A stretch of 64,000 nt of DNA from Spiractinospora alimapuensis. Lineage in GTDB: Bacteria; Actinomycetota; Actinomycetes; Streptosporangiales; Streptosporangiaceae. Under the pieces are notes generated by a model. The model was not told the DNA's origin, searched no databases, and saw nothing but the letters and a program-made list of their open reading frames with translations. Location of the stretch: the NCBI RefSeq assembly GCF_018437505.1, contig NZ_CP072467.1, positions 2,852,001-2,916,000 of the forward strand, given 5' to 3'. Shown here piece after piece: positions 2,099-18,016 of this stretch; position 1 is the stretch's first letter; each line of letters starts with the position of its first letter. The translations under genes and the position numbers were made by a program.

Positions 2099-3007
2099 AT
2101 GGAGTTCCGCCATCTTCGTTACTTCTCCGCACTGGCCGAGGAGGGATCGTTCAACCGCGCCGCCGCGCGCCTCCACATCTCCCAGCCCTCACTGAGTCGC
2201 CAGCTCCGGGAACTGGAGCGGCACCTGGGGACGGTCCTCATCGACCGGGGCCCGCGCGGTGCGACACTGACGGCCGCCGGCACGGCACTGCTGGAGCACG
2301 CGCGCCAACTGCTGACGCTGGAGGCGGCCACGGCCGGTGTGGTCGCCGGGGTGGAGAGGACGCGGGAGCTCGTGCGCGTCGGCCTGCCGCCGGGGCTGCC
2401 GACTCAGTGGGCCACGGCCACCGCGCACCGCGTGGCGACCGACGTCCCCACCTGCGACCTGGAGTACACCGAGGAGAACAGCGCCCAGCAGCTCCGCGAA
2501 GTACGCCAGGGACGCCTGGACATCGGCGTGGTCCACCAGGCTCCGCCGGCGGACGAGGACTCGGTGCTGCTGTGGCGCGAACCGATGGGAGCGGCCGTTC
2601 GCCCCGGTCATCCACTTACCGACGCCGAGGAGTTTCGGCTGGAGGACCTCAACGGACAGCGTGTGCTCGTCCACTCCCGCGACCAGGTCCCCACGCAGCA
2701 GGACGGCATCATGGCCGCGGCCCTCGCCGCAAACGTGCACCCCGACTGGCGGTTCGCGCGGTTCGCCGAGTACGCGCGGCCGTGTGCCGAGGCCGCGCGG
2801 GCCGACGCGGTTCTCGTCGGGGCACACACCGCGGCCGCCCACCTGTCGGACTGGACCTGGCGCCCCCTCGCGGGCCTGTCGCTGGCGATGTCGACGTGGC
2901 TCGTGTGGCCACGGCACACCCGCACGGTGGTCGCGGCCGTCGCCGGGGCGATCGCGGACACCCCACCACCGGGGTTGCCCTCCGTCTCCGCTCGGCCCTC
3001 ACCGTAG
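2099..3007 (+). CDS. LysR-family transcriptional regulator
   Basis: 302 residues, the usual LysR length. The first 60 residues carry the family winged helix-turn-helix (MEFRHLRYFSALAEEGSFNR..., then ARLHISQPSLSRQLRELE). The rest matches the two-lobed effector-binding domain. It is divergent from the isomerase/SDR operon, so the simplest reading is that it controls that operon in response to its substrate and also itself. The N-terminus begins exactly at the family start, which supports this ATG. Confidence 0.93.
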   Translation: MEFRHLRYFSALAEEGSFNRAAARLHISQPSLSRQLRELERHLGTVLIDRGPRGATLTAAGTALLEHARQLLTLEAATAGVVAGVERTRELVRVGLPPGLPTQWATATAHRVATDVPTCDLEYTEENSAQQLREVRQGRLDIGVVHQAPPADEDSVLLWREPMGAAVRPGHPLTDAEEFRLEDLNGQRVLVHSRDQVPTQQDGIMAAALAANVHPDWRFARFAEYARPCAEAARADAVLVGAHTAAAHLSDWTWRPLAGLSLAMSTWLVWPRHTRTVVAAVAGAIADTPPPGLPSVSARPSP

Positions 3008-4277: not shown

Positions 4278-5075
4278 TCAACTCTTTCGGGCCAGGCCGC
4301 AGAACTCGTCCATGTCGCGGGCGGTGCCGATGTCGGCGGGGTCGGGGCGCCACCGCGGGCAGGGAACCACACCGGGGTCGAGGATTTCCAGGCCTGCGAA
4401 AAGGCCGGTGATCCGTTCCGGAGTCCGGAGGTTGTAGACGGCCGAACCGGCCTTGTTCCAGCGGCGCACGGCTTCGATCATGCCCTCGCCGGTGACGGCG
4501 CTGGTGCTGTGCACGATGCCGAGGTGGCTCCCAGAGGGCAGGGCGGCCATCAGACGGGCGATGATGTCCTGGGCCTCGGCGTCGTCTCCGACGAACGGCA
4601 GAACGCCCAGCATGGTGACCGCGACCGGCTCGCGGAGGTCCAGCGTGGCACTGGCCCGGTCCAGGATGTGCTCCGGGTCGCGAACGTCGGCGTGGACGTA
4701 GTCCGTGGCGCCTTCGGCGGTGCCGACGAGCAGTGCCCGCGCGTGCGCGAGGACCAGCGGATCGTTGTCGACGTAGACGATCCGGGACTCGGGCGCGAGG
4801 GCCTGCGCGACCTCGTGGGTGTTGTTCTGGGTGGGGAGCCCAGTGCCGATGTCGAGGAACTGTCGCACACCGGCCTCGACCGCCAGGTGGGTGATGAAAC
4901 GTCGGAGGACAGCCCGGGTCTCGCGGGCGATGTCGGCGATCTCGGGGAAGACCTCCAGGATGCCCTTCCCGGCCGCGCGGTCCACCGGGTAGTTGTCCTT
5001 GCCGCCCAACCAGTAGTTCCAGATCCGGGCGGAGTGGGACACCGAGGTGTCGAGTTCGGGCACGCCCTGCTGCAT
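4278..5075 (-). CDS. SAM-dependent methyltransferase, DUF574 family
   Basis: 265 residues of the actinobacterial DUF574 (Methyltransf_19) family. Diagnostic signs are the N-terminal SARIWNYWLGGKDNY segment, the SAM loop FLDIGTGLPTQNN at about residue 72, and YVDNDPLVLAHA. The family is abundant in Streptomyces and Nocardiopsis, and its substrates are mostly unknown. The ATG at 5075 is the family start; an in-frame extension upstream lacks homology. It lies downstream of nicD on the same strand, but a 118-bp gap and the family's wide distribution argue against a role in nicotinate breakdown. A second member is at 34152-35042. Confidence 0.9.
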   Translation of the reverse strand: MQQGVPELDTSVSHSARIWNYWLGGKDNYPVDRAAGKGILEVFPEIADIARETRAVLRRFITHLAVEAGVRQFLDIGTGLPTQNNTHEVAQALAPESRIVYVDNDPLVLAHARALLVGTAEGATDYVHADVRDPEHILDRASATLDLREPVAVTMLGVLPFVGDDAEAQDIIARLMAALPSGSHLGIVHSTSAVTGEGMIEAVRRWNKAGSAVYNLRTPERITGLFAGLEILDPGVVPCPRWRPDPADIGTARDMDEFCGLARKS

Positions 5076-5193
5076 GGTTCCACCCACTGTTCGGCGAGAG
5101 GCTTCTCGGGGCCAACGGACATCGTGCAACCCACAGAAGCGACTGTCCAGGGCCCCCGGCGAGAACGGACAACCGGGGGCGCCCTGGACTTCC

Positions 5194-6039
5194 TCAGCTC
5201 GCCGCCAGGGCCCCCATCCGCTCGCGGACCACGGTGAGGGCCTCCTTGGGGGTGTCCCAGAAGACCATGTGCCCGGCGTCGGGGACGCGCACGAGCTCGG
5301 CGGCCGGGTTCGCTGTGGCGGCCTCGGCCGCCCCGTCGGCCGTGACGACGGGGCTGTCACCGCCGTAGACGAGGGTGGTGGGTGCGGGTACCTCGGGCCA
5401 GGTCGCGAAGAAGTCCTCGGTCTCGAACCCACGGTGCGTGGCGTCGATGGACTCGGCGTCGCAGCTCGCGAGCCAGCGGGCGCGGAGTTCGCGTTCGCGG
5501 TGGGGCCAGCGTGGCCACGACAGGGCGACCTCGTCGGCGTCGGTTCCCCGCTGGGCCTGCTGGAGCTGCGACCGGAACATGTCCAGCGTGGTGGGGTAGG
5601 TGCCGCGCCCGGGCCCGCTCATCGGGGGGTCGACGAGGATGGTGCCGCGCGTCCGGACCCCGGGGCGCGCGGCTGTCACGGCCGCGATCCGGGCGCCCAG
5701 CGAGTGGCCGAGCAGGATGGGCCGCTCCAGGCCCAGACCGTCGATCACGGCCTGGGTGTCGTCGGCGTAGGCCTCGAGGCCGTAGGTGTCCCCACCGTCG
5801 GAGAAGCCGCGTCCCCGCAGGTCCATCACGATGGGACGCACCAGGTCGGTGAGTTCACGGGCCACGAAGTCCATGCTGATCGCGGGACTGGTGATCCCGG
5901 GGAGGACGACGACGGGGACGCCGTCGCCCCCGTAGTCCAACACGTGGAGCCGCAGCTCCCCCGAGTGGACCCACCGCCCCCGGGCCGGAACGTCGGCCAG
6001 GTCGGCGAGGGCGTGCTGGCTCAGCAGGCGGTCGGACAT
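5194..6039 (-). CDS. nicD: N-formylmaleamate deformylase
   Basis: A 281-residue alpha/beta hydrolase that would cleave N-formylmaleamate to maleamate and formate, the step after ring opening. The nucleophile elbow GHSLGA places Ser113, and the catalytic His lies in AGHMVFWD near the C-terminus. Two stretches match Pseudomonas putida NicD as I remember it: PGITSPAI with the following FVAREL, and VDPPMSGPGRGTYP. It is the last gene of the nic run, 24 nt after nicF. With nicX, nicF and nicE in the same unit, this specific assignment is much stronger than generic hydrolase. Confidence 0.9.
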   Translation of the reverse strand: MSDRLLSQHALADLADVPARGRWVHSGELRLHVLDYGGDGVPVVVLPGITSPAISMDFVARELTDLVRPIVMDLRGRGFSDGGDTYGLEAYADDTQAVIDGLGLERPILLGHSLGARIAAVTAARPGVRTRGTILVDPPMSGPGRGTYPTTLDMFRSQLQQAQRGTDADEVALSWPRWPHRERELRARWLASCDAESIDATHRGFETEDFFATWPEVPAPTTLVYGGDSPVVTADGAAEAATANPAAELVRVPDAGHMVFWDTPKEALTVVRERMGALAAS

Positions 6040-6063
6040 GTGCTGCCTCCTGGAGAGGGTGGG

Positions 6064-6726
6064 TTACGAGGAACGGCGGGGTGTCAGCGCGGACAGGTAG
6101 TCGCGCGCGTCGGCGACCCCGATGACGTCGCCGTACTTGGCCTGGATGTCGAACAGGTTCGCGTCGTGCGGCGCCTGGGCCCGGTCGCCCACGCACTCCC
6201 GGGGGACGAGCACCGAGAACCCGGACTGGACGCCGTCCACGGCGGTGGCGCGGACACACCCGCTGGTCGTGGCGCCACAGACGAGGATGGTGTCGCAGCG
6301 CAGCCCGGCCAGCGTCGCGGCGAGGGAGGTGCCGTGGAACGCGGACGCGCCCTTCTTCACGACGAGGGTGTCCTCCGGTGCGGCGGGCAGCCGGGGATCG
6401 AGGATCACCGCGTCGCTTCCCTCCCGCAGGCCGCGCATGCCCTGCGCCTTGTCCAGCCACCGCACGGTGTCGCCGGCGAGTTCGGCCGCGCTGTAGGAGA
6501 TGGTGGTGAAGATGACTGGCACCCCGGCGGGGCGGGCCGTCTCGATCAGCGTGCCCGTCGCGGCGACCACGTCGGTGAGGTCGGATCCGAACGGTGAGCT
6601 CGGATCGGTGAACCCCTGGATGAGGTCGACGACGACGATCGCCGGACGCTCTCCCCGACGGACGCTGCCCCCGAAGCCCGCCCGCGCGTAGGTCGCGTCG
6701 GTTCCGGTCGTCGAATTCTCAGCCAC
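6064..6726 (-). CDS. nicF: Maleamate amidohydrolase (isochorismatase family)
   Basis: 220 residues. The enzyme hydrolyses maleamate to maleate and ammonia. The cysteine-hydrolase triad can be placed: Asp34 (VVVDLIQGF), Lys124 (VVKKGASAF) and Cys157 (TSGCVRATAVD). The closing segment RECVGDR followed by HDANLFDIQAKYGDV is almost the same as in Pseudomonas NicF. The start overlaps the end of coxG by 8 nt, so translation is coupled. Ammonia release here makes the pathway a nitrogen as well as a carbon source. Confidence 0.93.
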   Translation of the reverse strand: MAENSTTGTDATYARAGFGGSVRRGERPAIVVVDLIQGFTDPSSPFGSDLTDVVAATGTLIETARPAGVPVIFTTISYSAAELAGDTVRWLDKAQGMRGLREGSDAVILDPRLPAAPEDTLVVKKGASAFHGTSLAATLAGLRCDTILVCGATTSGCVRATAVDGVQSGFSVLVPRECVGDRAQAPHDANLFDIQAKYGDVIGVADARDYLSALTPRRSS

Positions 6727-7414
6727 GGCGGGCCTCCCGCAGCGACTTCAGGTGCTTGGACTGGGCGGAGAGCCGACCCAGCAGCCACCCCTGGAACACC
6801 CCGAAGGCGAACGCGCCCACGTAGGGGAGGTATCGCGCCGCGGGACCGAGCACGAGGCCGAGACCGTCGAGCTCGGCCGAGTCCGCCGCCGCGGGAACGG
6901 TGTTCCGTGGCGCGCCGGCGGGAGCCGTGGCCGGGGCGGACGCGGCGCGGGCCGCGCTGGGCGGTGTCGCGTCCTGGGCGAGCAGCCCCGCCAGGTTCCG
7001 GCCGAACTGCTTGAGCAGCCGGTCGGTGACCATGGAGATCGCTCCCTTGCCGAACTGGGCGATCTTGCCCCGGATGACCAGGTCGGCGTCGATCCGCAGC
7101 ACCGATCCGGCGCCGTCCGCCTCGACGCTCAGTCCGATCTCCACCTCGGCGTCGCCGTTGCCGTGGGTGTCGGCTCCCCGCCCTTGGGCGCGAAGGGTGC
7201 GCGCGGCGGTGTCGACCTCGATGAACCGGATGGTGCCCGAGTAGGCCGCGGTGATCGGGCCGACCTTGACGGTCACGTCGCCCTCGTATGTGTCGCCGTC
7301 CCGCTCCCGAAGGGACGCGCCCGGAACACAGGACACCACGCGTTCCACGTCGTTGATGAGGGCGAAGACCTCGTCGGGTGAGGCGTCGACCGTGATTGCG
7401 TTCGTCAGTTGCAT
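6719..7414 (-). CDS. coxG: CoxG-like SRPBCC protein
   Basis: 231 residues. The first 150 form a CoxG/SRPBCC domain (NAITVDASPDEVFALINDVERVVSCVPGA, later GKIAQFGKGAISMV). The tail holds an Ala/Pro-rich linker and one hydrophobic segment near the C-terminus. CoxG in CO-oxidising bacteria anchors the molybdenum hydroxylase to the membrane. By analogy this one would tether the neighbouring dehydrogenase to the cytoplasmic membrane for electron delivery. It follows the small subunit after 302 bp containing a partial second copy of its own 5' end. Confidence 0.88.
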   Translation of the reverse strand: MQLTNAITVDASPDEVFALINDVERVVSCVPGASLRERDGDTYEGDVTVKVGPITAAYSGTIRFIEVDTAARTLRAQGRGADTHGNGDAEVEIGLSVEADGAGSVLRIDADLVIRGKIAQFGKGAISMVTDRLLKQFGRNLAGLLAQDATPPSAARAASAPATAPAGAPRNTVPAAADSAELDGLGLVLGPAARYLPYVGAFAFGVFQGWLLGRLSAQSKHLKSLREARRG

Positions 7415-7624
7415 GACCGGTTCCTAACGCTGACCAGTGCTGGGCTGCTTGGGGCTGTACTCGCCAGGACGGTGCTGGCTTCGGGGCGGGGTGGAGGCCG
7501 GGCGTCCGGGAGGTCCGGTGGGAGCCGGGTACCGTCCGGGTCCCACCGACGCTGTACCCGAGCACCGTGGAGTCGGCCGAGGTTCCGTGGATCGTCCCGG
7601 CCGCGCCGCCCGCCCGTACCGTGG

Positions 7625-7700
7625 CGTGGCACCGGCGTCCACGATTTCGTTCGTCAGTCGCATGACCGTTTCCTTACGCTGGCCGGCACTGGGCTGGTGC
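7625..7700 (-). pseudogene. Duplicated 5' end of coxG (remnant)
   Basis: Positions 7643-7696 repeat 7394-7447 at 46 of 54 bases, exactly 249 bp apart. The repeated part spans a ribosome site (AAGGAAACGG), an ATG at 7663 and codons reading MRLTNEIVDA, against MQLTNAITVDA for the intact gene. After about ten codons similarity stops and the frame continues with Arg/Pro-rich, non-CoxG sequence. It looks like the stub of a tandem coxG duplication that was later deleted. The rest of 7415-7716 shows no gene. Confidence 0.7.
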
Positions 7701-7716
7701 GAGGCCCGGGCGGTAC

Positions 7717-8271
7717 TCAGGCGGGCCGGGGTTCGTGCTGAGGTCGGGTCCGCCCGGGGCAGGATCCCCCCGCGGCGTCACCGGCCGGCCCGTGGGACTG
7801 ACACCGGCGCGCCGCACAGTCCTCGATGGCGTCCACGATGGTCTGGTAGCCGGTGCACCGGCACAGGTTCGCCGAGACCGCCTCCCGGATCTCGTCCCGG
7901 CTGGGACTCGTGTTCTCGCTGAGGAACCCCTCGGCGAGCATCAGGAATCCCGGCGTGCAGAATCCGCACTGGAGGCCGTGGTTGTCGGCGAACGCGGTCT
8001 GCAGGTCGCTGAGGTCGTCCGGGGCGCCGAGGGACTCCACGGTCCGGATGTCCCGCCCCTCCGCCTGCACGGCGAACATCAGGCAGGCCCGCGCAGGCGC
8101 GCCGTCGACGAGGATGGTGCAGGCGCCGCAGACCCCGTGTTCGCAGCCGACGTGCGTGCCGGTGAGCCGCAGGTCGTGCCGGATGGCGTCCACGAGGGTC
8201 CGACGGGCGGAGACGAGCAGCTCGTGGTCGGCGCCGTTAACGGTGAGGGTGATCAGGTGCTGGTCGGTCAT
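7717..8271 (-). CDS. Molybdenum hydroxylase small subunit, 2x[2Fe-2S]
   Basis: 184 residues. The plant-type [2Fe-2S] motif GCEHGVCGAC with a later C (residues about 38-60) and the second cluster CGFC plus CRC (about 100-137) are complete. This is the iron-sulfur chain between the molybdenum centre and FAD in the xanthine oxidase family. The ATG at 8271 overlaps the large-subunit stop by 4 nt. Some 20 residues after the core are extra and low in complexity. In this cluster it belongs to the predicted nicotinate dehydrogenase. Confidence 0.93.
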   Translation of the reverse strand: MTDQHLITLTVNGADHELLVSARRTLVDAIRHDLRLTGTHVGCEHGVCGACTILVDGAPARACLMFAVQAEGRDIRTVESLGAPDDLSDLQTAFADNHGLQCGFCTPGFLMLAEGFLSENTSPSRDEIREAVSANLCRCTGYQTIVDAIEDCAARRCQSHGPAGDAAGGSCPGRTRPQHEPRPA

Positions 8272-10676
8272 GTCTGCGGCTCCAACGTGTCCAGGGTCTC
8301 CAGCGCGCGCTGGACCGTCTCCGGGGTGATGGGGGTCTGGTCGAGTTCGATCCCGGTCGGGCGTAGGGCGTCGTTCACGGCGTTGAGCACCGCCGCGGGT
8401 GCCCCGATGGTGCCGCCCTCCCCCACCCCCTTCGCGCCGCTCTCGGTGAACGCGCAGGGGGTTTCCAGGTGGTGGATCTCGACGTCGGGGATCTCGCTGG
8501 CGGTGGGCACCTTGTAGTCGATGAAGCTGGCGCACGAGGGTTCGCCCTGCGCGTCGTAGGTGACGCTCTCGAAGAGGGCGCCCGCGATGCCCTGGGCGAT
8601 GCCGCCCCGGCACTGCCCTTCCACCACCTGGGGATGGATGGCGATACCGCAGTCCTCGACGCACAGGTAGCGCAGGATCTCCACCTTCCCGGTGCCGGGG
8701 TGCAGCTCCACGACGACGGCGTGGGTGGCGTTGGCGAACGTCCCGTCACCTGGGGTGTCGAAGCTCGCCGTCTCGGTCAGGCCGGGTTCGGTGTCCTTGG
8801 GGAGTCGGTTGGCCCGCAGGTAGGCGGCGTCGGCGATGTCGGTGAAGGGCACGGCGCGCTCGTGGTCGTCGCGGTGGCGCACCGTCCCTCGGTGCAGTTC
8901 CACGTTGTCGATCTCGGTGTCCAGCAGGTGGGCGCCGATGTGGCGGAGTTTCACGCCGAGTCGGTCCGCGGCGAGGGAGACCGCGCTGCCGCCGATGGTG
9001 ACGGAGCGGCTGGCGAAGGTGCCCCAGCCGTAGGTGATGCGGTCGGTGTCGCCCTGCTGGACCTTGACCTTGGCCACGTCGATGCCGAGCTGGGTGGCGA
9101 CGATCTGCGCCAGCGTGGTCTCGTGGCTCTGCCCGTGGTTCATCGTCCCCGAGGTCACGACGACCGAGCCGCTGGTGTCCATCCGGATCTCGGAGAGGTC
9201 GAAGCCGGGAACCACCATCATCTTGCGCTTGGCGAACGCGTCACTGCCGTACCCGGTGCGCTCGTTGAAGCAGCAGTACCCGATCCCGACGGTGCGCCCC
9301 TGGGCGGCGGCCTCCCGCTGGAACTCGTACCAGCCCTCCGCGCGGACCAGTTCCTCGCACAGGTTGAGGGCCTCCAGGTAGCTCCCCGGGTCGTAGGTGA
9401 CCATGTTGACGCCGGTGTAGGGGAACTCGGTGATGACGTTGCGGCGCCGGATCTCCACGGGGTCCAGGTCCAGCTCACGGGCTGCCCGCTCGAACAGCCG
9501 CTCCATCACCATCACGTACTGGGGGCGGCTCACCCCGCGGTAGGGGGCGCTGGGCGCCTTGTTCGTGGTGATGGCGCGGCCCCGCACCCGGTAGGCCGGC
9601 ACGCGGTACACCCCGGGCATCTCGGCGGAAGCCATGAGGGGCTCGATCCCGGCGGAGAACGGGAAGCAGGAGTAGGCGCCCATGTCGCACACGATGTCGG
9701 CGTCGAGGGCGAGGATCCGGCCCTCGGAGTCGAACGCCGCGCGCGCCTCGTAGCGCTGTTCCCGCGCGAGGAACGCCGCGCTCAGCGCGTCCCGCCGGTC
9801 CTCGATCCACTTGACGGGACGGCCGAGCCGGATGGCGGCGGCCCCGGCCGCGATCTCCTCCCGGCCGACGACACACTTCTGTCCGAACCCGCCGCCCATG
9901 TCGGGTACGACGACCCGCACGGTGCGTTCGTCCCTACCCAGACAACGCGCCATGACGGTGCGCACCTGGTGCGGAACCTGGGTGCACGTCCGCACCAGCA
10001 GCTGCTCGTCCCGTTCCTCCCACGAGACGACGACGCCCCGGGTCTCCAGCGGCAGCGCGTTCTGCCGGGCGGACCGCGCCACCACGTCGACGACACAGTC
10101 GGCCGAGGCGAAGACGTCCTCGATGCCGTCCGTGGCGAACATCGACACGTCGAGGAGGGTGTTTTTGGGGGCGTTGTCGTGGACCAGCGGCGCCCCCTCC
10201 GCCAGGGCCTGGTCGTCGGAGACCACGGCCGTACTGGCGGAGTAGGTCACCCGGGCGGCCTCCACGCCGTCCTCGGCCGCGTAGGGGTCCTCCGCGAGCA
10301 CGATGGCGAGGGGCTCCCCGGTGAACCGGACGCGATCCCGAGCCAGCACCGGCATGTCGGTGGGCACGAACTCCGAGAGGGGACGCTCCAGGATCGCGGT
10401 GATGTCGCCGAGGTCGAGGTCGGCCGCGGTGTAGGCGGCGAGCACGCCGGGGGTGCGTCGGGTCTCGGTGAGGTCGATGTCCACGACCTCACCGGCCGCG
10501 ACGGTGCTGCGCACGAACTGCGCGTGCGCCATCCCGGGCAGGGCGATGTCGTCCACGAACTGCCCTCGGCCGGACACCAGGCGTGGGTCCTCCCGCCGTC
10601 GGACGGAGGCGCCGACCCAGGTGCCGTCGGTCTCGAACCGGGGTTCACGGTGCTCGGACTTGGTGACACTGCTCAT
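8268..10676 (-). CDS. Molybdenum hydroxylase large subunit (predicted nicotinate dehydrogenase)
   Basis: 802 residues of the xanthine dehydrogenase/CoxL family: an a/b hammerhead in the first 150 residues, the cofactor loop GGGFGQK mid-protein, and the C-terminal catalytic Glu in GVGEGG. The active-site loop reads PYRGVSR. Form I CO dehydrogenase has AYxCSFR and form II AYRGAGR, so this is not a CO dehydrogenase. The surrounding nic genes lack any other enzyme for the first step, so hydroxylation of nicotinate to 6-hydroxynicotinate is inferred. No XdhC/CoxI-type sulfuration factor is in the window. Confidence 0.9.
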   Translation of the reverse strand: MSSVTKSEHREPRFETDGTWVGASVRRREDPRLVSGRGQFVDDIALPGMAHAQFVRSTVAAGEVVDIDLTETRRTPGVLAAYTAADLDLGDITAILERPLSEFVPTDMPVLARDRVRFTGEPLAIVLAEDPYAAEDGVEAARVTYSASTAVVSDDQALAEGAPLVHDNAPKNTLLDVSMFATDGIEDVFASADCVVDVVARSARQNALPLETRGVVVSWEERDEQLLVRTCTQVPHQVRTVMARCLGRDERTVRVVVPDMGGGFGQKCVVGREEIAAGAAAIRLGRPVKWIEDRRDALSAAFLAREQRYEARAAFDSEGRILALDADIVCDMGAYSCFPFSAGIEPLMASAEMPGVYRVPAYRVRGRAITTNKAPSAPYRGVSRPQYVMVMERLFERAARELDLDPVEIRRRNVITEFPYTGVNMVTYDPGSYLEALNLCEELVRAEGWYEFQREAAAQGRTVGIGYCCFNERTGYGSDAFAKRKMMVVPGFDLSEIRMDTSGSVVVTSGTMNHGQSHETTLAQIVATQLGIDVAKVKVQQGDTDRITYGWGTFASRSVTIGGSAVSLAADRLGVKLRHIGAHLLDTEIDNVELHRGTVRHRDDHERAVPFTDIADAAYLRANRLPKDTEPGLTETASFDTPGDGTFANATHAVVVELHPGTGKVEILRYLCVEDCGIAIHPQVVEGQCRGGIAQGIAGALFESVTYDAQGEPSCASFIDYKVPTASEIPDVEIHHLETPCAFTESGAKGVGEGGTIGAPAAVLNAVNDALRPTGIELDQTPITPETVQRALETLDTLEPQT

Positions 10677-11530
10677 CGTTCGCTCGCCTCCGCACACGCG
10701 CGGGTGATCAGGGTTCGGGCCAGGGCCTTGCGGTAGTCCGCGGTCCCGTTGGCGTCGCTGGGCGGGTCGATGGCCTCGGCGGCCGCGTCCGCGCACTCGG
10801 TGAAGAGTTGGGGCCCCACCCGGCCTCCGCGCCGAAGGACCTCCTCGGCGGCGTCGACACGGACGGGGGTGGGCGCCACCCCGCCCAGGGCGACGCGTCC
10901 GCCGCGCACCGTGTCGCCGTCCAGGTCGAGGTCGACGGCGGCGGCCACCGTGGCGAAGTCCCCGTGCCGTTCGGCGAACTCAGTGAGGGCCGCGTGGGGT
11001 GCGGGGCGGGGGAACACGACCTCGGTGATGAACTCGTCGGGTTCCAGGGTGGTTGAGTAGAAACCGAGGAAGAGGTCCGCAGCGGCGATCTGGCGCTCCG
11101 ACCCTCCTGGGCCACGCGCCGTCACCCGGGCGTTGAGCAGGACCGCCAGCAGGCACCACTCGGCGGTGGCGTCGGCGTGGGCGAGGCTACCGCCCACCGT
11201 GCCGAGCGACCGGATGGGGAGGTGACCCACCCAGGCCATCGCCTCACGCAGGATGGTGAACCCCGGATCCAGCCCGTCCGCCGTCTCGACGTCGTGGTGG
11301 GTGGTCAACGCGCCGATGCGCAGCCCGGCACCGTCCGGGGTGACGTGGCGCAGGGTGGACAGCCGACTCACGTCGACCAGGTGGCGCGGTCGGGCGAGGC
11401 GGAAGTTCATCATCGGGACCAGGCTCTGACCCCCCGCGATGATCTTCGCGTCGTCCCCGAGTTCGGTCAGCAGTGCGGTGACCCCATCGACGTCGCGGGC
11501 GCGATGGTAGGTGAAGGCAGCGGGCTTCAT
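10673..11530 (-). CDS. Molybdenum hydroxylase FAD subunit
   Basis: 285 residues, the usual length of CoxM/XdhB-type subunits. The FAD-binding motifs AGGQSLVPMM (about residue 32) and TVGGSLAHADATAEW (about residue 110) are intact, followed by the C-terminal CO_deh_flav_C region. It passes electrons from the iron-sulfur subunit to the acceptor. The gene order medium-large-small with two 4-nt overlaps gives balanced synthesis of the three subunits. A 248-bp gap separates it from nicC; it holds no gene I can support. Confidence 0.93.
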   Translation of the reverse strand: MKPAAFTYHRARDVDGVTALLTELGDDAKIIAGGQSLVPMMNFRLARPRHLVDVSRLSTLRHVTPDGAGLRIGALTTHHDVETADGLDPGFTILREAMAWVGHLPIRSLGTVGGSLAHADATAEWCLLAVLLNARVTARGPGGSERQIAAADLFLGFYSTTLEPDEFITEVVFPRPAPHAALTEFAERHGDFATVAAAVDLDLDGDTVRGGRVALGGVAPTPVRVDAAEEVLRRGGRVGPQLFTECADAAAEAIDPPSDANGTADYRKALARTLITRACAEASER

Positions 11531-11778
11531 GGCATCTCTTTCTCCACCGGGCCACGTGGGCGGCGTGACCGACGGATCGCGGAACAGAGCCGATGACGGC
11601 TGTCGAGCGGCTGGGCTAGTGAGTCATGGGACGTGTACACAGAGTAATCATCCGGCCTTGTGGGCGGGTTGTGCCCGTGGCGGGGCGGTCCGCGGAGGGT
11701 CAGCCGCGGGGCTGGGCGGGGCGGGTGGTTCCGGAGGCTGGGTTGGGCCGGGTGCGGGGCCTGGTGGAAAGGCCGGGG

Positions 11779-13044
11779 TCAGCGGATGAACTGGTAGGAG
11801 AAGGACTCCGTATCGTCCTCCCGCAGCGGGGTGCCGCGCCAGAGGAGGTCGTAGGAGATCGCGGACTCGCCGTGGAAGTCGCGCAGCTTGGCGTCGCGCT
11901 CCTCCTGCCGGGGGCCGTCGGGCAGGTGGTAGAGCTCCATGTTGCGCAGGGACGCGTCCTGCACCATGGCGGCGCGCTTGGCCCGTCGCGACACGTAGCG
12001 GGTGAGGGCCTCGGGGGCGTTGGCGACGGTGACCGCGCCGAGCTCCTCGGCGAGCACGGCGGCGTCCTCCATCGCCTGGGACGCGCCCTGCGCCTGGTAG
12101 GGCAGCATGGCGTGGCAGGCGTCGCCGAGAAGCGCGATCCGGCCGTCCACCCACACCGGGTCGGGCAGGCGGTGGTACATCGCCCACGCGCTCACCGACT
12201 CGGCCTTGGACAGCATGGCTGGGACACGGTCGTCCCACCCGGGGTAGGCGCCGGCCAGTTCCTCGGCGGTCGCCGGGGCCGACCACTGGCGTTCGAGCTC
12301 CGGCCCGCACGGCACGATCGCGACGACGTTCAGGTACTCGCCGCCCCGGATCATGTAGTGCACGAGGTGACGGTCGGGCCCGTACCAGATGGTGCTGTGG
12401 AAGCGGTCGAGGAGGAACCGCGTGGCCGGGTCCTCCGCGATCCTCTCGCCGGGGATGAGCGCCCGGTAGGCCATCTCCCCGGAGAAGCGCAGCGTGTCGC
12501 GGAACCCGGCGGCGTCACGCACCCGGGACTGGATGCCGTCGGCGCCCACCACCACGTCGGCGGAGTGACGCTCACCCTGGGCGGTGACGATGGTCGGCCG
12601 CGCCGGGTCGGTCCGGTCGACGTCGACCACCTCGCAGCCGGTGCGCACCTGGACGACGGGACCGGGCCCGTCGGCGTCCACGCACGCGTCCAGGATGACG
12701 CGGTGCAGGTCGGCGCGGTGGTAGTGCCAGTAGGGCCCGTTGTAGTCACGCTTGCACCGGTCGCCCAGAGGGGTCTGGCCGATGATGCTGCCGTCCTTCC
12801 ACCGCCGGCGGACCTGGTCCTGCGGCTCGGTGTGGATCTCCTCCAACCGCTCCCGCAGGCCGAGACGCATCAGGATACGGCTGGCGTTCGGCGCGGTCTG
12901 GATGCCGGCGCCCACCTCACCCAGTTCTGGTGCCCGTTCGAGCACCGTCACCCGCAGCCCCTGCTGACGAAGGGCGAGTGCGGCGGTCAACCCGCCGAGT
13001 CCCGCTCCCACGATCGTCACCTCGTAGGACTGACTGGATGGCAT
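11779..13044 (-). CDS. nicC: 6-hydroxynicotinate 3-monooxygenase-like flavoprotein
   Basis: 421 residues of the class A flavin monooxygenases (salicylate hydroxylase type). The FAD dinucleotide motif GAGLGGLTAAL is at about residue 12, the DG motif GADGIQSR mid-protein, and GDACHAMLPYQAQGA near residue 305. NicC decarboxylates and hydroxylates 6-hydroxynicotinate to 2,5-dihydroxypyridine using NADH and O2. Sequence alone supports only the family; the assignment to NicC rests on nicX, nicE, nicF and nicD next to it. Close relatives such as 3-hydroxybenzoate 6-hydroxylase cannot be excluded by sequence. Confidence 0.85.
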   Translation of the reverse strand: MPSSQSYEVTIVGAGLGGLTAALALRQQGLRVTVLERAPELGEVGAGIQTAPNASRILMRLGLRERLEEIHTEPQDQVRRRWKDGSIIGQTPLGDRCKRDYNGPYWHYHRADLHRVILDACVDADGPGPVVQVRTGCEVVDVDRTDPARPTIVTAQGERHSADVVVGADGIQSRVRDAAGFRDTLRFSGEMAYRALIPGERIAEDPATRFLLDRFHSTIWYGPDRHLVHYMIRGGEYLNVVAIVPCGPELERQWSAPATAEELAGAYPGWDDRVPAMLSKAESVSAWAMYHRLPDPVWVDGRIALLGDACHAMLPYQAQGASQAMEDAAVLAEELGAVTVANAPEALTRYVSRRAKRAAMVQDASLRNMELYHLPDGPRQEERDAKLRDFHGESAISYDLLWRGTPLREDDTESFSYQFIR

Positions 13045-13123
13045 TCTTCCTCCAAGCGGTGTGCACGGTTCGGCGCGCGGCGCAGGACGCGCGCGCCGAA
13101 CGGTGTGTGGGGCGACGCGGTGG

Positions 13124-14134
13124 TCAACCCTGTCGAATGAGCTGGTCGCCGTCCTTGATCCAGGAGATCTTGCGTAGGCCGAGGCTGATCACCCAGGCGA
13201 TCAAGGCGGGGAGCACGATGTGGAACGCGACGATGACGGCGAGAAGCTGGTAGCTGAAGCCCATCGTCGTGATGGTCATGATCTGGCCGACGAACCCGGC
13301 CGTGCCCATTCCCGCCCCCGCGGCGTTGCTCTCCATGGAGAAGACGATGACCGCGATCGGGGCGAGGATCGCGCCGGCCAGGGTCGGGGGAATCAGCAGG
13401 CGCGGATTCTTGAGGATGTTGGGGAACTGCAGCATCGAGGTGCCCAGGCCGATGGAGGCGAGGCCGCCCCACCGGTTCTCCCGGAAGCTCATCACCGCGA
13501 AGCCGACCATCTGCGCGCTGCACCCGACCGTCGCGGCCCCCGCGGCGAGGCCGCTGAGGTCCAGCATGACCGCGATCGCGGCACTGGAGATGGGGGCCGT
13601 GAGGGCGAGTCCCATCAGGACGGCGATCAGGATGCTCATCGTGAAGGGTTCCTGCGTGGTCGCCCAGTTGATGAGCTCGCCGAACCGGCGCAGTCCGCTG
13701 TCGATGACCGGACCGATCGCCCACGCGACCGCGAAGCCCGACAGGACCGTGACCGCCGGGGTCACGACGATGTCGATCTTCGTCTCCTTGGAGACGATCT
13801 TTCCGATCTCCACGGAGACCACCGCGGCGAGGAAGGCACCGGCCGGTCCTCCGAGCTCGGCTCCCGCGGCGCCCGTGGCGGCCGCGGAGAACAGCACGAG
13901 CGGCGGACCGCCCAAGGCGTAGGCGACGGCGACGCCGATGGCCGGCCCCATCATCCCCATGGCGAGGGTTCCGGCCTCAATGAGGAACCCGACACCGGCC
14001 TGTTCACCGACCGTCTGGATGATCAGGCCGATGAGCAGCGACGAGAACAGGCCCAGCGCCATGAACGACATGGCTTCGATGAAGTAGGTGTGCAGTGAGG
14101 GCCGCACACCCTTGTTGGCGAGAAAGGTCTTCAT
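13124..14134 (-). CDS. PTS EIIC-like membrane protein, candidate pathway transporter
   Basis: 336 residues with about nine or ten hydrophobic segments, resembling the PTS_EIIC_2 (PF13303) family. The start KTFLANKGVRPSLHTYFIEAMSFMALGLFSSLL is typical. There is no EIIA or EIIB domain, and no PTS partner lies nearby, so phosphorylation-coupled sugar uptake is unlikely. It sits between nicC and nicE in the nicotinate unit, where Pseudomonas has the NicT transporter. I infer uptake or export of nicotinate or a hydroxypyridine. The ATG at 14134 is favoured by AGGGAAG just upstream; a GTG start at 14158 is possible. Confidence 0.82.
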   Translation of the reverse strand: MKTFLANKGVRPSLHTYFIEAMSFMALGLFSSLLIGLIIQTVGEQAGVGFLIEAGTLAMGMMGPAIGVAVAYALGGPPLVLFSAAATGAAGAELGGPAGAFLAAVVSVEIGKIVSKETKIDIVVTPAVTVLSGFAVAWAIGPVIDSGLRRFGELINWATTQEPFTMSILIAVLMGLALTAPISSAAIAVMLDLSGLAAGAATVGCSAQMVGFAVMSFRENRWGGLASIGLGTSMLQFPNILKNPRLLIPPTLAGAILAPIAVIVFSMESNAAGAGMGTAGFVGQIMTITTMGFSYQLLAVIVAFHIVLPALIAWVISLGLRKISWIKDGDQLIRQG

Positions 14135-14312
14135 GCGCTTCCCTGGTCTGAGGTCCACCGTGACGCGATCACGTGCGGGGGTCGGGGACGTGTCGGTCCC
14201 CCGTAAGTGCTTGTGACCGCCAGGACCGCGGGCGCTTCGTCGCGGCCCGGGTCATCGTGCCCCTCCCACGGGTGTGGGAAGGGAGCACACGAATGCAGTG
14301 GCCCCGCTGGGA

Positions 14313-14327
14313 CGCCAGACTCTGGCG
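14313..14327 (-). other. Intercistronic hairpin between nicE and the EIIC-like gene
   Basis: CGCCAGA and TCTGGCG form a perfect 7-bp stem with a 1-base loop. A second, bulged CCCAC/GTGGG hairpin lies near 14264-14280. Neither has a T-run. The 231-bp gap otherwise shows no gene. The hairpins could tune the level of downstream genes against nicX and nicE. Confidence 0.35.
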
Positions 14328-14365
14328 GGGCTGGGAGTGGGTGAGGCGCTACCGAATCCGTACGG

Positions 14366-15127
14366 TCAGGGCGCGGGTACGGTACCGCTGAGCAGGTGAC
14401 CTGTGTCCGGGACGACGGTGTCCAGGCCCAGTTCTGAAAGTAGACAGTACGCTGTCGCGGTCGCCGCCGAGAGGACGGGTACCGGTGCTTGGTCCTCGAT
14501 CCGCTGGATGACCGGCAGCGAGGGCATCTGCACGCAGGCGGAGACCACCAACGCGTCGGCGCCGTTGAGGTTCAGGGTGCGCCAGTGCTCCTCGAGCCCC
14601 GCCGGGTCGAGGCGGGCGACCTCCAGGTTGTCGGCGACCTCGAGACTGAGGGCGTCGACCACCTCGGTGCCGGCGTTCTCGATGTAGTCGACCACGGTCT
14701 GGGTCAACGGCTTCATGTAGGGCGTGATGAGGGCGATGCGCCGGGCCTTGAGGGCCGACAGCGCCGTGAGGAGCGCCCCCGCGCTGGACACCACGGGCAC
14801 CTCGGCGTCGTTCCCGCGCAGCGCGGCGGAGATCGCGTCCTCGGCGGTGCAGTGGTAGCCGGGCCCCTGGGCCATGATCGCCACCAGGCAGGCGGAGGTC
14901 ACGATGTCGGGGCGGGCGTCGGAGAGCTCCGTCGCGGCGCGCTCGCTCTGCGCGTTCATCTCCCGAAGCTGCTCCGGGGTGACGCGCTGCATGCGCGTCC
15001 GGGCGCTGTGGAAGGTGAAGCGGTCCTCGGGTCGGACGGCCTCCCGCGCGGACAGCATGCGCGGGATCTCCGTCTCCATGGTCAGGTTGGAACTCGGCAC
15101 GATCATGCCGATGCGATGGTCAGGCAT
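14366..15127 (-). CDS. nicE: Maleate cis-trans isomerase
   Basis: 253 residues of the Asp/Glu racemase superfamily. It converts maleate to fumarate, which enters the TCA cycle, ending the pathway. The opening IGMIVPSSNLTMETEIP is the maleate isomerase signature. The two catalytic cysteines are Cys80 (SACLVAIMAQG) and Cys198 (VSACVQMPSL), matching the pair recalled for Pseudomonas NicE apart from a 2-residue offset. It lies 42 nt after nicX. Alternatives such as arylmalonate decarboxylase lack this N-terminal signature. Confidence 0.94.
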   Translation of the reverse strand: MPDHRIGMIVPSSNLTMETEIPRMLSAREAVRPEDRFTFHSARTRMQRVTPEQLREMNAQSERAATELSDARPDIVTSACLVAIMAQGPGYHCTAEDAISAALRGNDAEVPVVSSAGALLTALSALKARRIALITPYMKPLTQTVVDYIENAGTEVVDALSLEVADNLEVARLDPAGLEEHWRTLNLNGADALVVSACVQMPSLPVIQRIEDQAPVPVLSAATATAYCLLSELGLDTVVPDTGHLLSGTVPAP

Positions 15128-15169
15128 TGGTGCCTCCCCTCTTCTTCCAGGCTAGGAGGGACGAAGGTC

Positions 15170-16201
15170 TCAGCGACGATCCAGGGGGCGCATTTCGGGC
15201 ACCGTGATGTCGCCGTCGCGCACGATCTGTTCGTCGTCGAGGTACAGGCTGCAACCGCGCATGGGGATGTCGAAGTGGCAGGGGGTGTCGTTCGGTCCGC
15301 CGAGCTCGTTGTTGGGGCCGATGGAGAACATGACGTTGCCGTAGAACGACCGGAGCTCCATCCCCATGCCGCCGGGGAACTGGGTCAGCCCGTGCCAGTG
15401 GGCGCGCTCGTCCAGGCCCCAACCCACGTGCGACATCCCGTAGCCGCGCGGGTCGTTGAAGGAGGCGATGTAGGAGGAGAGGAGCTCGGCGTCCAGACCG
15501 CCACGGATGTCGGTGATGAAACCGTGTTCGATCGTGATCGTGACGGGCGTCTGCACGTAGGTGTTGAACGGGAGCAGGACGTCACCGGGGGACAGCACGA
15601 TGGTGCCGTCCACGCCGTCGTCGGCCCCACCGGTGAACACGAACGCGGCGGGCCAGTGGTCCCAGCGGCCGGGGGTGTCGGTGTAGCCGTACTCGCTCAT
15701 CGTCGGATAGACGCCGAGCTGGTAGGTGACGTCGGTCCCGCCCGGGCTGGTGATCCGCATGGTGCGGGCCTTGGCGAGGAGTTCGGCGCCGACCTCCACG
15801 CGCTCGCGGAGCTCGCGCGTGGGCATCAGCCGGGCGAGCAGCGGGGCGGGCTCGACCACGGTGAGGATCCGGGTGTCGGCGGCCTGGATGGCGAACTGCT
15901 CCTTGCTGAAGAGCAGGAAGGTCAGGTCGATCAGCATGTCGGACTGCTTGAGCGCCTCGACCGCGACGTCGTTGCCAGCGAGCCCCGACTCGCCGACGGC
16001 CCAGGCTCCTGACGCCTCGCGGGAGTTGGGCAGCCGCATGTGGAAGGTGTTGGCCCCCAGCTCCTGGGCGGCGAAGAGGAACGCGTTGGCGAAGTCGCCG
16101 CGTTCGTCGCCCCGGGACAGCACAGCGAGCGTCTCGCCGTCACGGACACCGCTCAGGGAGAGCTGCCGTACGCAGATGTCATTCAGGCTGTTCTGATCCA
16201 T
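15170..16201 (-). CDS. nicX: 2,5-dihydroxypyridine 5,6-dioxygenase
   Basis: 343 residues. This Fe(II) extradiol-type enzyme opens the ring of 2,5-dihydroxypyridine to N-formylmaleamate. Long stretches agree with Pseudomonas NicX as I remember it: EYGYTDTPGRWDHWP, FNDPRGYG, SHVGWGLDERAHW and NDTPCHFDIPMR. The likely iron ligands are His258, His309 and Asp311, with the same spacing as the known His/His/Asp set. I chose the ATG at 16201 because GGAG lies 9 nt upstream; a GTG two codons earlier is too close to it. It is the first gene of the nic unit, beside the divergent MarR gene. Confidence 0.95.
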   Translation of the reverse strand: MDQNSLNDICVRQLSLSGVRDGETLAVLSRGDERGDFANAFLFAAQELGANTFHMRLPNSREASGAWAVGESGLAGNDVAVEALKQSDMLIDLTFLLFSKEQFAIQAADTRILTVVEPAPLLARLMPTRELRERVEVGAELLAKARTMRITSPGGTDVTYQLGVYPTMSEYGYTDTPGRWDHWPAAFVFTGGADDGVDGTIVLSPGDVLLPFNTYVQTPVTITIEHGFITDIRGGLDAELLSSYIASFNDPRGYGMSHVGWGLDERAHWHGLTQFPGGMGMELRSFYGNVMFSIGPNNELGGPNDTPCHFDIPMRGCSLYLDDEQIVRDGDITVPEMRPLDRR

Positions 16202-16234
16202 CACCACTCCAACAACGCGAATTAATCCGGAGAC

Positions 16235-16273
16235 TGATAGTCAGTGCCCGGACTGTCCGGACACTGACTATCA
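16235..16273. promoter_or_regulatory. 39-bp near-perfect palindrome, nic operator
   Basis: TGATAGTCAGTG (16235-16246) and CACTGACTATCA (16262-16273) are perfect inverted 12-mers. Inside them CCGGA and TCCGG (16248-16252, 16256-16260) share the same centre at 16254, so only one pair (16247/16261) mismatches. It overlaps the predicted -10 of the nicX promoter and lies 34 bp before the nicX ATG. The divergent MarR protein is the obvious ligand. Confidence 0.8.
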
Positions 16274-16296
16274 TCGACGTGGGCGGTCCACGTCAA
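16267..16296 (-). promoter_or_regulatory. Predicted nicX promoter
   Basis: Read on the minus strand, TTGACG (16291-16296) and GATAGT (16267-16272) are separated by 18 bp. The -10 lies inside the outer arm of the palindrome, so bound repressor would block initiation. The rest of the 381-bp region 16202-16582 shows no gene. Confidence 0.5.
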
Positions 16297-16582
16297 GAGG
16301 TGAAGTGGATCATTTGATGTCGATTCCGAGTCGGGCGTGTGACACGCGGGGTTCACCTCGGTCCACACCGTCGGCGCACACGGAGATCGACGCCGACAGC
16401 GCCCGTCGGGGCGTGGCCGGGGTAGTGTCTCCAACGCCCCGTCCAACGCACGCCCACCGGCACCCAGGCGGGCACGGCGGCGCCCGAGAGCGGCACCGGA
16501 CCCTCTGGGTTCCTCGCCAGGCGGCACATCCCGCCCCTCGGCGGTCCGGTTCGAGGACAGAACGTCAGGAAGGGAAGGCACA

Positions 16583-17098
16583 GTGAGCGGTGGCGACCGG
16601 ATCGATCAGACCTCCAGCCGCACCAACGGCAGGGGCGAGGCGGGCGCTGGCCCACCCTCGACCCCGCCCGATCTCCTGGCCGCACCCGGATACCTGGTCC
16701 GACGCATGTACCAGGCCTACACCGCGCTGTGGGGACAGACCGTGGACTCCACACTCACCGGACCGCAGTTCGCGGTACTGACCGCGGTGGAACACGACCC
16801 CGGGGTCGACCAGGGGTCCCTGGCGTCGGTCATCGCGCTCGACCGGTCCACCATGGCCGACGTGGCGCGCCGACTGGAGGACCGTGGGCTCATCACCCGC
16901 GCCACGTCCACCACCGACAGCCGACGCAAACTCCTGCACCTGACCACCCACGGGACCCAGGTACTCGCCGAGACCAACCAGCGGGCCCGTGACCTGGACC
17001 GGTTGCTGCTCCAGGGCTCCCCGCCCGAGGGGCGCGAGCGACTGATGCGGGACCTCATCCAACTGGCCGAGGACTGGGAGAAACTCACCCAGCGCTGA
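16583..17098 (+). CDS. nicR: MarR-family regulator, probable repressor of the nicotinate cluster
   Basis: 171 residues. After about 30 disordered residues comes a MarR winged helix (LTGPQFAVLTAVEHDPGVDQGSLASVIALDRSTMADVARRLEDRGLI, then a wing with DSRRKLLHLT). Such proteins bind palindromes as dimers and release DNA when an aromatic acid binds. In Pseudomonas the NicR regulator is also MarR-type and responds to 6-hydroxynicotinate; orthology here is inferred from position. It is transcribed away from nicX across the region carrying the 39-bp palindrome. GTG start, preceded by AGGAAGGGAAGG. Confidence 0.85.
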   Translation: MSGGDRIDQTSSRTNGRGEAGAGPPSTPPDLLAAPGYLVRRMYQAYTALWGQTVDSTLTGPQFAVLTAVEHDPGVDQGSLASVIALDRSTMADVARRLEDRGLITRATSTTDSRRKLLHLTTHGTQVLAETNQRARDLDRLLLQGSPPEGRERLMRDLIQLAEDWEKLTQR

Positions 17099-17217
17099 TT
17101 CCCACGCCTCTCCCGCTTTCCGCCCCCTGCTCCCCCACCAGGAAATCCACGCGTCGATCGTATGGGACTGCACGTCCAGCCGCTATAGCGCGGGAATCCC
17201 TCCAGGGGGCCGCTGCC

Positions 17218-17223
17218 TAGAAT
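17218..17223 (+). promoter_or_regulatory. Possible -10 giving a leaderless transcript
   Basis: TAGAAT ends 7 nt before the ATG at 17231, which would place the transcript start at the start codon. No clear -35 or ribosome site is present. Confidence 0.35.
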
Positions 17224-17230
17224 CGACCGC

Positions 17231-18016
17231 ATGACGCTCACCGACACCTTCCGAGACCTCCACCACCGCGACGAAGTCCTCCTCATGCCCAACCCCTGGG
17301 ACGCCGGATCCGCGAAGGTGATGGAGTCGCTGGGATTCGCGGCCCTGGCCACCACCAGCAGCGGAGCCGCCGCCACGCTGGGCCTCGACGACGGCGCGTT
17401 GGGACGGGACCGGGCGCTGCGCGGCGCCGCCGAGATCGTGGCCGCCGTCGACGTCCCCGTCTCGGCCGATCTGGAGAACGGGTTCGCCGACGACCCCACC
17501 GGGGTGGCCGACACCTTCCGACGCGCAGTGGACGTCGGGCTCGCTGGAGCGTCGATCGAGGACTGGGACGGGTCGGCCATCTACGAACGCCGGCACGCGG
17601 TGGAGCGGGTGCGCGCGGCGGTGGAGGCGGCGGACGGTCGACTCGTGGTGACGGCCCGCGCGGAGAACCACATCCACGGCGTCGACGACTTCGAGGACAC
17701 ACTCGGCCGGGTCCAGGACTACGCGGCGGCCGGAGCCGACGTCGTGTTCGCGCCCGGACTGGCAACGGCGGACCAGATCGGGGCCCTGGTGCGCGGTGTG
17801 GACGTCCCGGTGAGCGTTCTGGCCGTCCCCGGAGTGCCGTCCGTACCGGAACTGCGGGACCTCGGGGTGCGGCGCGTCTCGACTGGCGGCTCCTGGGCGT
17901 GGGTGGCCTACGCGGCCATGGCGGAGGCGGGGCGCGAACTCCTGGAGCAGGGAACGTTCGGGTACCTCGACGGTGCGGCGGAGGACCGGGCCGTCGTCGA
18001 TCGGGCACTCGGATAG
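17231..18016 (+). CDS. Isocitrate lyase/PEP mutase superfamily protein
   Basis: 261 residues forming a TIM barrel of the ICL/PEPM superfamily. Recognisable parts are LMPNPWDAGSAKVMESLGFAALATTSS, the metal-binding SADLENGF near residue 80, and IEDWDG near residue 115. Characterised members make or break C-C or P-C bonds of small 2-oxo acids. The Lys-Arg-Cys loop of isocitrate lyase and 2-methylisocitrate lyase is not evident, so the reaction is unknown. It follows the MarR gene by 132 bp on the same strand, but nothing ties it to nicotinate use. Confidence 0.87.
   Translation: MTLTDTFRDLHHRDEVLLMPNPWDAGSAKVMESLGFAALATTSSGAAATLGLDDGALGRDRALRGAAEIVAAVDVPVSADLENGFADDPTGVADTFRRAVDVGLAGASIEDWDGSAIYERRHAVERVRAAVEAADGRLVVTARAENHIHGVDDFEDTLGRVQDYAAAGADVVFAPGLATADQIGALVRGVDVPVSVLAVPGVPSVPELRDLGVRRVSTGGSWAWVAYAAMAEAGRELLEQGTFGYLDGAAEDRAVVDRALG

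Follow-up and report, generated by a model that had tools for sequence, protein, structure and literature searches.

A probable nicotinate-to-fumarate operon of Spiractinospora alimapuensis couples a known lower pathway to different upper enzymes, another uptake system and a different regulator pocket

The nicotinate hydroxylase NicAB is composed of two subunits, the larger of which carries an additional cytochrome part. In the nic cluster of Pseudomonas putida KT2440, which is also under MarR control, degradation further involves NicX, NicD, NicF and NicE (in part from passages of PMC5500553 and PMC6837509). Nicotinate dehydrogenases are principally from Proteobacteria according to the review PMC10331938, which also mentions a three-subunit enzyme of Bacillus sp. 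DSM2923 (20, 34 and 85 kDa). For actinobacteria, a search of titles and abstract openings in the open-licence literature found no work on a nicotinate gene cluster; in passages of PMC10005059, Rhodococcus strains possess genes for maleamate amidohydrolase and lack 6-hydroxynicotinate 3-monooxygenase, and PMC12746152 names this monooxygenase only among its references. Here, we analyzed a 64-kb piece (the window) of the single-contig 5.86-Mb genome of Spiractinospora alimapuensis. Ten genes on its minus strand, running from 16201 to 5194, very probably form a nicotinate-to-fumarate operon, in which the known pathway starts with other enzymes, uses another uptake system and has a regulator with a different pocket. 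NicX, NicD, NicF and NicE of the window are homologous to those of P. putida and would perform the same chemistry, and a MarR gene is present as well. The window differs by a three-subunit flavin adenine dinucleotide (FAD)/Fe-S/molybdenum (Mo) enzyme of another class instead of NicAB, by a monooxygenase placed outside canonical NicC in trees, and by its transporter. The features are as follows:

5194..6039, minus strand: NicD, predicted N-formylmaleamate deformylase (alpha/beta hydrolase); 172 bits to 4l0c
6064..6726, minus strand: NicF, predicted maleamate amidase (isochorismatase family); 196 bits to 4l07, exact amidase from context
6719..7414, minus strand: CoxG-like, probably an accessory protein for the Mo hydroxylase; PF06240, 69.7 bits
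7633..7696, minus strand: decayed duplicate of the 5' end of coxG, located in a spacer; 81% copy of 7384-7447
7717..8271, minus strand: small subunit (S) of the Mo hydroxylase, two [2Fe-2S]; PF01799 103 bits, PF00111 32 bits
8268..10676, minus strand: large Mo-cofactor subunit (L), quinoline/carbon monoxide (CO) dehydrogenase class; 538 bits to 1t3q
10673..11530, minus strand: medium FAD subunit (M) of the Mo hydroxylase; PF00941 147 bits, PF03450 80 bits
11779..13044, minus strand: FAD monooxygenase, predicted 6-hydroxynicotinate decarboxylating hydroxylase and functional analogue of NicC; 283 bits to 8x38
13124..14134, minus strand: PTS_EIIC_2 (PF13303) membrane protein, predicted nicotinate importer independent of the phosphotransferase system (PTS); 310.5 bits
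14366..15127, minus strand: NicE, predicted maleate isomerase; 257 bits with 4fq7, the two Cys motifs kept
15170..16201, minus strand: NicX, predicted 2,5-dihydroxypyridine 5,6-dioxygenase; 311 bits to 7cn3
16238..16270, no strand assigned: predicted operator, an inverted repeat built from two oppositely oriented 18-bp sites that overlap
16267..16296, minus strand: predicted operon promoter TTGACG-18-GATAGT; only promoter-like site in 5000-17300
16583..17098, plus strand: MarR-family regulator, divergent; 81 bits to PcaV (4fht)

An earlier note on this DNA had recognized NicX, NicE, NicF and NicD as well as a three-subunit Mo hydroxylase and a MarR regulator. All of these are confirmed by profile and structure matches far above chance. 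The gene overlaps it mentioned are likewise seen in the sequence, namely ATGA in each of the pairs M/L and L/S and 8 nucleotides between coxG and nicF. It had, however, placed all genes on one strand, which is wrong since the MarR gene lies on the plus strand, divergent from the ten genes on the minus strand. While every gene it named is there, its list lacked coxG (7414-6719) and the gene of the PTS_EIIC_2 membrane protein (14134-13124).

In the proposed pathway, the PF13303 protein would import nicotinate, which the Mo/Fe-S/FAD hydroxylase, aided by CoxG, would convert at C6 to 6-hydroxynicotinate. The FAD monooxygenase is predicted to hydroxylate C3 with loss of CO2, yielding 2,5-dihydroxypyridine, through the para-hydroxy-carboxylate chemistry that related hydroxylases apply to vanillate and 4-hydroxybenzoate. 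By family function and the residues checked, NicX would then open the ring to give N-formylmaleamate, NicD would release formate, NicF ammonia, and NicE would turn maleate into fumarate. The divergent MarR protein may act as a repressor at the inverted repeat that overlaps the -10 box, with an aromatic carboxylate (perhaps 6-hydroxynicotinate) as the signal for its release. The earlier claim that every step is covered is partly supported: by homology and residues in the lower part, by gene linkage and family chemistry only in the upper.

The part leading from 2,5-dihydroxypyridine to fumarate is strongly supported by homology together with kept catalytic and metal residues. NicX has the 2,5-dihydroxypyridine dioxygenase 7cn3 as its sole match among solved structures and is 90-91% identical to NicX of Nocardiopsis listeri, N. 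kunsanensis and Nocardiopsaceae YIM 96095. The window protein and 82/82 relatives with >60% identity retain the Fe ligands His265, Ser302, His318 and Asp320 and the substrate contacts Glu177 and His189; all of them, among which is the NicX from a NicAB-type cluster of an alphaproteobacterium, have Phe in place of the contact His105 (roles as given in passages of PMC7910607). Many NicX orthologues in plasmid records are labelled 'leucyl aminopeptidase'. A Peribacillus plasmid (L123) combines a NicX homologue (50%) with flavin genes of the 4-hydroxyphenylacetate-3-hydroxylase type, possibly a further upper pathway. Maleate isomerases use two catalytic Cys residues, and NicE keeps both in its SACLVA and SACVQMPS motifs. 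NicD scores 172 bits with deformylase 4l0c against 58 for the second-best match, and its motifs GHSLGAR, VDPP and AGHM supply Ser, Asp and His. NicF displays the Asp/Lys/Cys motifs of isochorismatases and matches the isochorismatase-family hydrolase 4l07, which we take to be a maleamate amidase; maleamate as its exact substrate is predicted from gene context.

The large subunit of the first hydroxylase holds the Mo domains only, FAD being bound by a separate subunit. It scores 538 bits with quinoline 2-oxidoreductase (1t3q), 459 with CoxL, 164 with xanthine dehydrogenase and 129 with aldehyde oxidoreductase, and its Glu motif reads KGVGEGG. In a tree of 24 rows, eight window-type large subunits formed one group with 100/100 support. 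Quinoline oxidoreductase (39% identity) belongs to the same Mo-hydroxylase class but lies outside this group, and quinoline is not expected as substrate of the window enzyme. Three identities were rejected. Aerobic CO dehydrogenase has the Cys loop AYACSFR (8uem) where the window has APYRGVSR, and the NCBIfam cut-offs were missed. A grouping with purine or aldehyde dehydrogenases, which the earlier note had named as part of what would speak against its reading, did not appear: the bit scores are far lower, and seven paralogues from the same genome fall outside the group. As to NicAB, comparison with two NicB-type proteins gave a best blastp piece of ~30% identity over 131-138 residues. With its separate FAD subunit, other Mo class and distance from NicB, the enzyme is not NicAB, in agreement with the difference from NicAB that the earlier note had stated; the sequence does not name the substrate. 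In subunit number, sizes and cofactors it resembles, by description, the nicotinate dehydrogenase of Bacillus sp. DSM2923 (passages of PMC10331938). Alphaproteobacterial plasmid clusters (Phyllobacterium L091, Roseomonas L124, Pseudosulfitobacter L125) are alike in NicX (67-75%) and in a MarR gene nearby, but they encode a two-gene Mo hydroxylase with a large subunit of 1137-1182 residues, probably NicAB to judge from the layout, and, unlike the window, a NicC that is 65-72% identical to P. putida NicC. Genome G171 (locus L130) carries genes for M, L and S in a row together with a second, more distant large subunit.

For the second hydroxylase, the earlier designation as NicC-type monooxygenase is fair with respect to reaction class, but orthology to NicC is doubtful. 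Identity to P. putida NicC (8uiq) is 35% (205 bits), compared with 42% (283 bits) to vanillate 1-hydroxylase 8x38 and 38% (272 bits) to 8gsm, which is named 4-hydroxybenzoate decarboxylase in the PDB; both solved hydroxylases are presumably of fungal origin. In NicC, the residues His47, Cys202, His211, Tyr215 and His302 have roles in the active site. Three NicCs located beside NicAB-type genes keep all five, and the Gln at position 47 of the P. putida chain 8uiq is, as we assume, probably engineered. Window-type monooxygenases keep His211 and Tyr215, and the window protein shares Gln/His/Tyr/Tyr at NicC positions 47, 211, 215 and 302 with 8x38 and 8gsm. Canonical NicC formed a group of its own (100/100), and the free tree set the window-type monooxygenases apart, with long branches involved. 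However, their placing shifted between three trees, and a single clade with canonical NicC was not rejected by the approximately unbiased test (p 0.055). Hence, an origin separate from canonical NicC is likely, but not proven. As the aza-analogue of 4-hydroxybenzoate, 6-hydroxynicotinate would naturally be expected to undergo ipso-hydroxylation accompanied by release of CO2, and it is in this aza-analogue substrate that the window enzyme would differ from its vanillate- and 4-hydroxybenzoate-converting relatives.

Linkage of the two upper enzymes to the lower pathway was assessed in 81 loci, comprising the best 80 of 138 NicX matches and one Embleya plasmid. Monooxygenase and large subunit, each at >60% identity, occur together in 50 of these (full loci); one has the monooxygenase alone, six the large subunit alone, in which the module runs off the fetched stretch, 18 another large subunit (34-39%) without window-type monooxygenase, and six neither. 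The full loci encode M and S in 50/50 cases, NicX, NicF and NicD in 49/50 each, NicE in 47/50, CoxG (counted at >40% identity) in 42/50 and a MarR homologue in 39/50. Among 394 genomes of the class, chosen independently of NicX and including that of the window, the monooxygenase (at least 68%) was found in seven, and the large subunit (at least 66%) in the same seven. Five of these have NicX of at least 90% identity in the cluster, and one genome outside the seven has NicX (80%) but neither of the upper enzymes. The remaining two of the seven (G314, G490) possess a second type of NicX, 36-38% identical to that of the window and 74 and 80% to that of Embleya, along with monooxygenase, L, M, S, CoxG, NicF, NicD, NicE and a major facilitator superfamily (MFS) gene. 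These genes form a single stretch in G314, whereas in G490 they are distributed over two contigs.

Divergent NicX (36-38%) replaces NicX in the otherwise kept modules of L090 (12905-13930), L127 and L128, and the Embleya protein keeps the Fe ligands and has Gln for Glu177. Two of the 18 loci with the other large subunit class were examined (L028, L033); both encode a protein with phosphoenolpyruvate-utilising domain and an ammonium transporter, and their substrate may be 3-hydroxypyridine. L060, also among the 18, has a large subunit that marks it as a further type. Locus L073 of Actinomadura rubrisoli has a MarR gene and the lower pathway, and a gene for a Rieske oxygenase alpha subunit at 33-1427.

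Next to nicX, the sequence TTGACG-18-GATAGT at 16296-16267 is the only promoter-like site in 5000-17300 (12.3 kb), compared to a mean of 0.4 in shuffles. Its -10 box runs into the inverted repeat at 16270-16238. The operator consensus TAGTCAGTGTTCGGACTA, allowing up to 5 mismatches within 160 nucleotides upstream of nicX, is present in 25/25 loci, the window included, whose MarR gene is adjacent and divergent, in 21/26 other loci with the monooxygenase and in 10/30 without monooxygenase in view; of the 18 loci with the other large subunit class, one has it. Only 0.12% of shuffled sequences reach this match; since the consensus had been derived by eye from the very sequences in which it was counted, this control guards against chance, but not against that choice. 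Strict palindromes within 420 nucleotides upstream of nicX occur in 7/80 loci, and none resembles the repeat of the window. Throughout the genome, the only two exact matches to the operator pattern are the window sites from which it was built, and the only site with one mismatch (C1:32345) is inside a 361-codon open frame; in total there were 52 matches, versus 35 for the reversed pattern. The MarR protein scores 81 bits with PcaV, 61 with HosA and 46 with BpsR. The Arg shared by BpsR and PcaV (Arg26 of BpsR) is kept in 37/38 homologues, in which position 23 is Tyr in 35/38, position 32 is Tyr in 36/38 and Tyr15 occurs in 0/38. With three of the four residues that contact 6-hydroxynicotinate in BpsR (Tyr15, His23, Arg26 and His32, according to passages of PMC6837509) not kept, the protein does not match the BpsR type of 6-hydroxynicotinate-binding regulator; an aromatic acid is the likely ligand.

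The PF13303 gene of the window is located between nicE and the monooxygenase gene, and its score (310.5 bits versus a Pfam cut-off of 28.9) places the product in the PTS_EIIC_2 family. In the full loci, the transporter slot is taken by an MFS gene in 45, which lies between the genes for monooxygenase and FAD subunit in 45/45, and by PF13303 without MFS gene in three Nocardiopsis-type loci, again between nicE and the monooxygenase gene; two loci (L032, L090) have neither. A sample of 150 genomes of the family contained a NicX match in nine and of at least 90% in four, and PF13303 was found in exactly those four, beside NicX (by coordinates, three of them are L009-L011). In the class sample, PF13303 exceeded the cut-off in 5/394 genomes, invariably between nicE and the monooxygenase gene, and eight more matches were weak and below it. 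No EIIA or EIIB was detected among the ten cluster proteins scanned, the rest of the genome not having been searched. Relatives exist elsewhere, e.g. in Photobacterium (58%) and Lachnospira (47%), but the gene neighbourhoods outside the class provided no functional hint (Lachnospira and Listeria, annotated; Photobacterium and Acetoanaerobium, unannotated stretches). Import of nicotinate by the PF13303 protein is the best reading of these data. We lean slightly towards the fuller scenario, in which this protein imports an aromatic pyridine acid without phosphotransfer and has replaced the MFS transporter, and in which the first two enzymes were recruited independently of NicAB and NicC. Alternatively, and concerning this part only, the protein could serve in export, carry maleate or fumarate, or be a membrane protein of sensor-like kind. 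Such a role is conceivable but doubtful: the AlphaFold model from four sequences was unusable (predicted local distance difference test score 40.8) and no characterized relative was found, whereas the three PF13303 loci are without the MFS gene present in 45 others, and the family surpasses the cut-off only inside this cluster in the class sample.

Several further observations weigh against a nicotinate operon of this composition. Neither upper enzyme has a characterized orthologue, and the large subunit remains under every NCBIfam cut-off. Its nearest named outside relative (41%) belongs to a picolinate-looking cluster of Paracoccus, followed by L060 and quinoline oxidoreductase (both 39%). 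His47, Cys202 and His302 of NicC are changed to Gln, Ser and Tyr in 51/51 window-type monooxygenases (window plus 50 loci; rows of up to 380 residues, i.e. one cut-off copy, were excluded), and only the Arg remains of the four BpsR contacts. NicF scores level between 4l07 and chain 26st, named N-carbamoylsarcosine amidohydrolase (195 bits). The components do not always travel together either: CoxG is absent from 8/50 full loci, the 21 kb of A. rubrisoli L073 encode the monooxygenase but no L, and G171 has L (50%), M (49%) and S (65%) without a window-type monooxygenase at the limit used. Nonetheless, we hold with good confidence that nicotinate, which the earlier note had marked as inferred, is the substrate of the operon. 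Degradation of another 3-substituted pyridine carboxylate or derivative, for instance a nicotinate analogue, would agree with the loss of substrate-specific NicC and BpsR residues and the separate monooxygenase group, but is improbable, as NicX needs 2,5-dihydroxypyridine, for which 6-hydroxynicotinate would be the simplest precursor in a decarboxylating hydroxylation. Still less probable is the 3-succinoylpyridine branch of nicotine degradation, in which a SpmABC-like Mo hydroxylase would produce 6-hydroxy-3-succinoylpyridine and a HspB/NdpD-like monooxygenase would feed the same lower pathway; the gene set is alike (SpmABC, by description, and HspB, then Hpo/Nfo/Ami/Iso; passages of PMC5500553). 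The annotated 6-hydroxy-3-succinoylpyridine hydroxylase NdpD of a Sphingobium plasmid, however, is only 27% identical to the window monooxygenase, sits on a very long branch and has a gap at the Tyr215 column, and no oxidase or aldehyde dehydrogenase is among the ten cluster proteins scanned. A route from picolinate via 6-hydroxypicolinate to 2,5-dihydroxypyridine deserves the least credence. In its favour, the Paracoccus cluster has NicX flanked by genes for an amidohydrolase and a ring-hydroxylating dioxygenase. Against it, no amidohydrolase-type decarboxylase was found among the ten scanned proteins (the rest of the genome was not searched) and, to our knowledge, a single ipso-hydroxylating flavoenzyme cannot convert 6-hydroxypicolinate to 2,5-dihydroxypyridine.

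Within the cluster, a 302-nucleotide spacer (7415-7716) separates the Fe-S subunit gene from coxG and holds the decayed 64-nucleotide copy of the coxG start; this spacing is -4 to 12 nucleotides in six relatives measured, without such a spacer. Adjacent to the MarR gene, the plus-strand gene 17231-18016 resembles phosphoenolpyruvate mutase/isocitrate lyase by eye and has no match in the 80 related loci. In the same loci, a LysR gene (2099-3007) found weak matches in a few, and a TetR gene none.

For actinobacteria, the proposed operon would add a compact nicotinate pathway in which three slots, i.e. first hydroxylase, second hydroxylase and uptake, are filled by non-textbook proteins, while NicX itself has been exchanged in some relatives. 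It would also hint at a function of PF13303, for which the records give no label other than PTS (sugar) subunit, and would put right the 'leucyl aminopeptidase' labels carried by many NicX orthologues.

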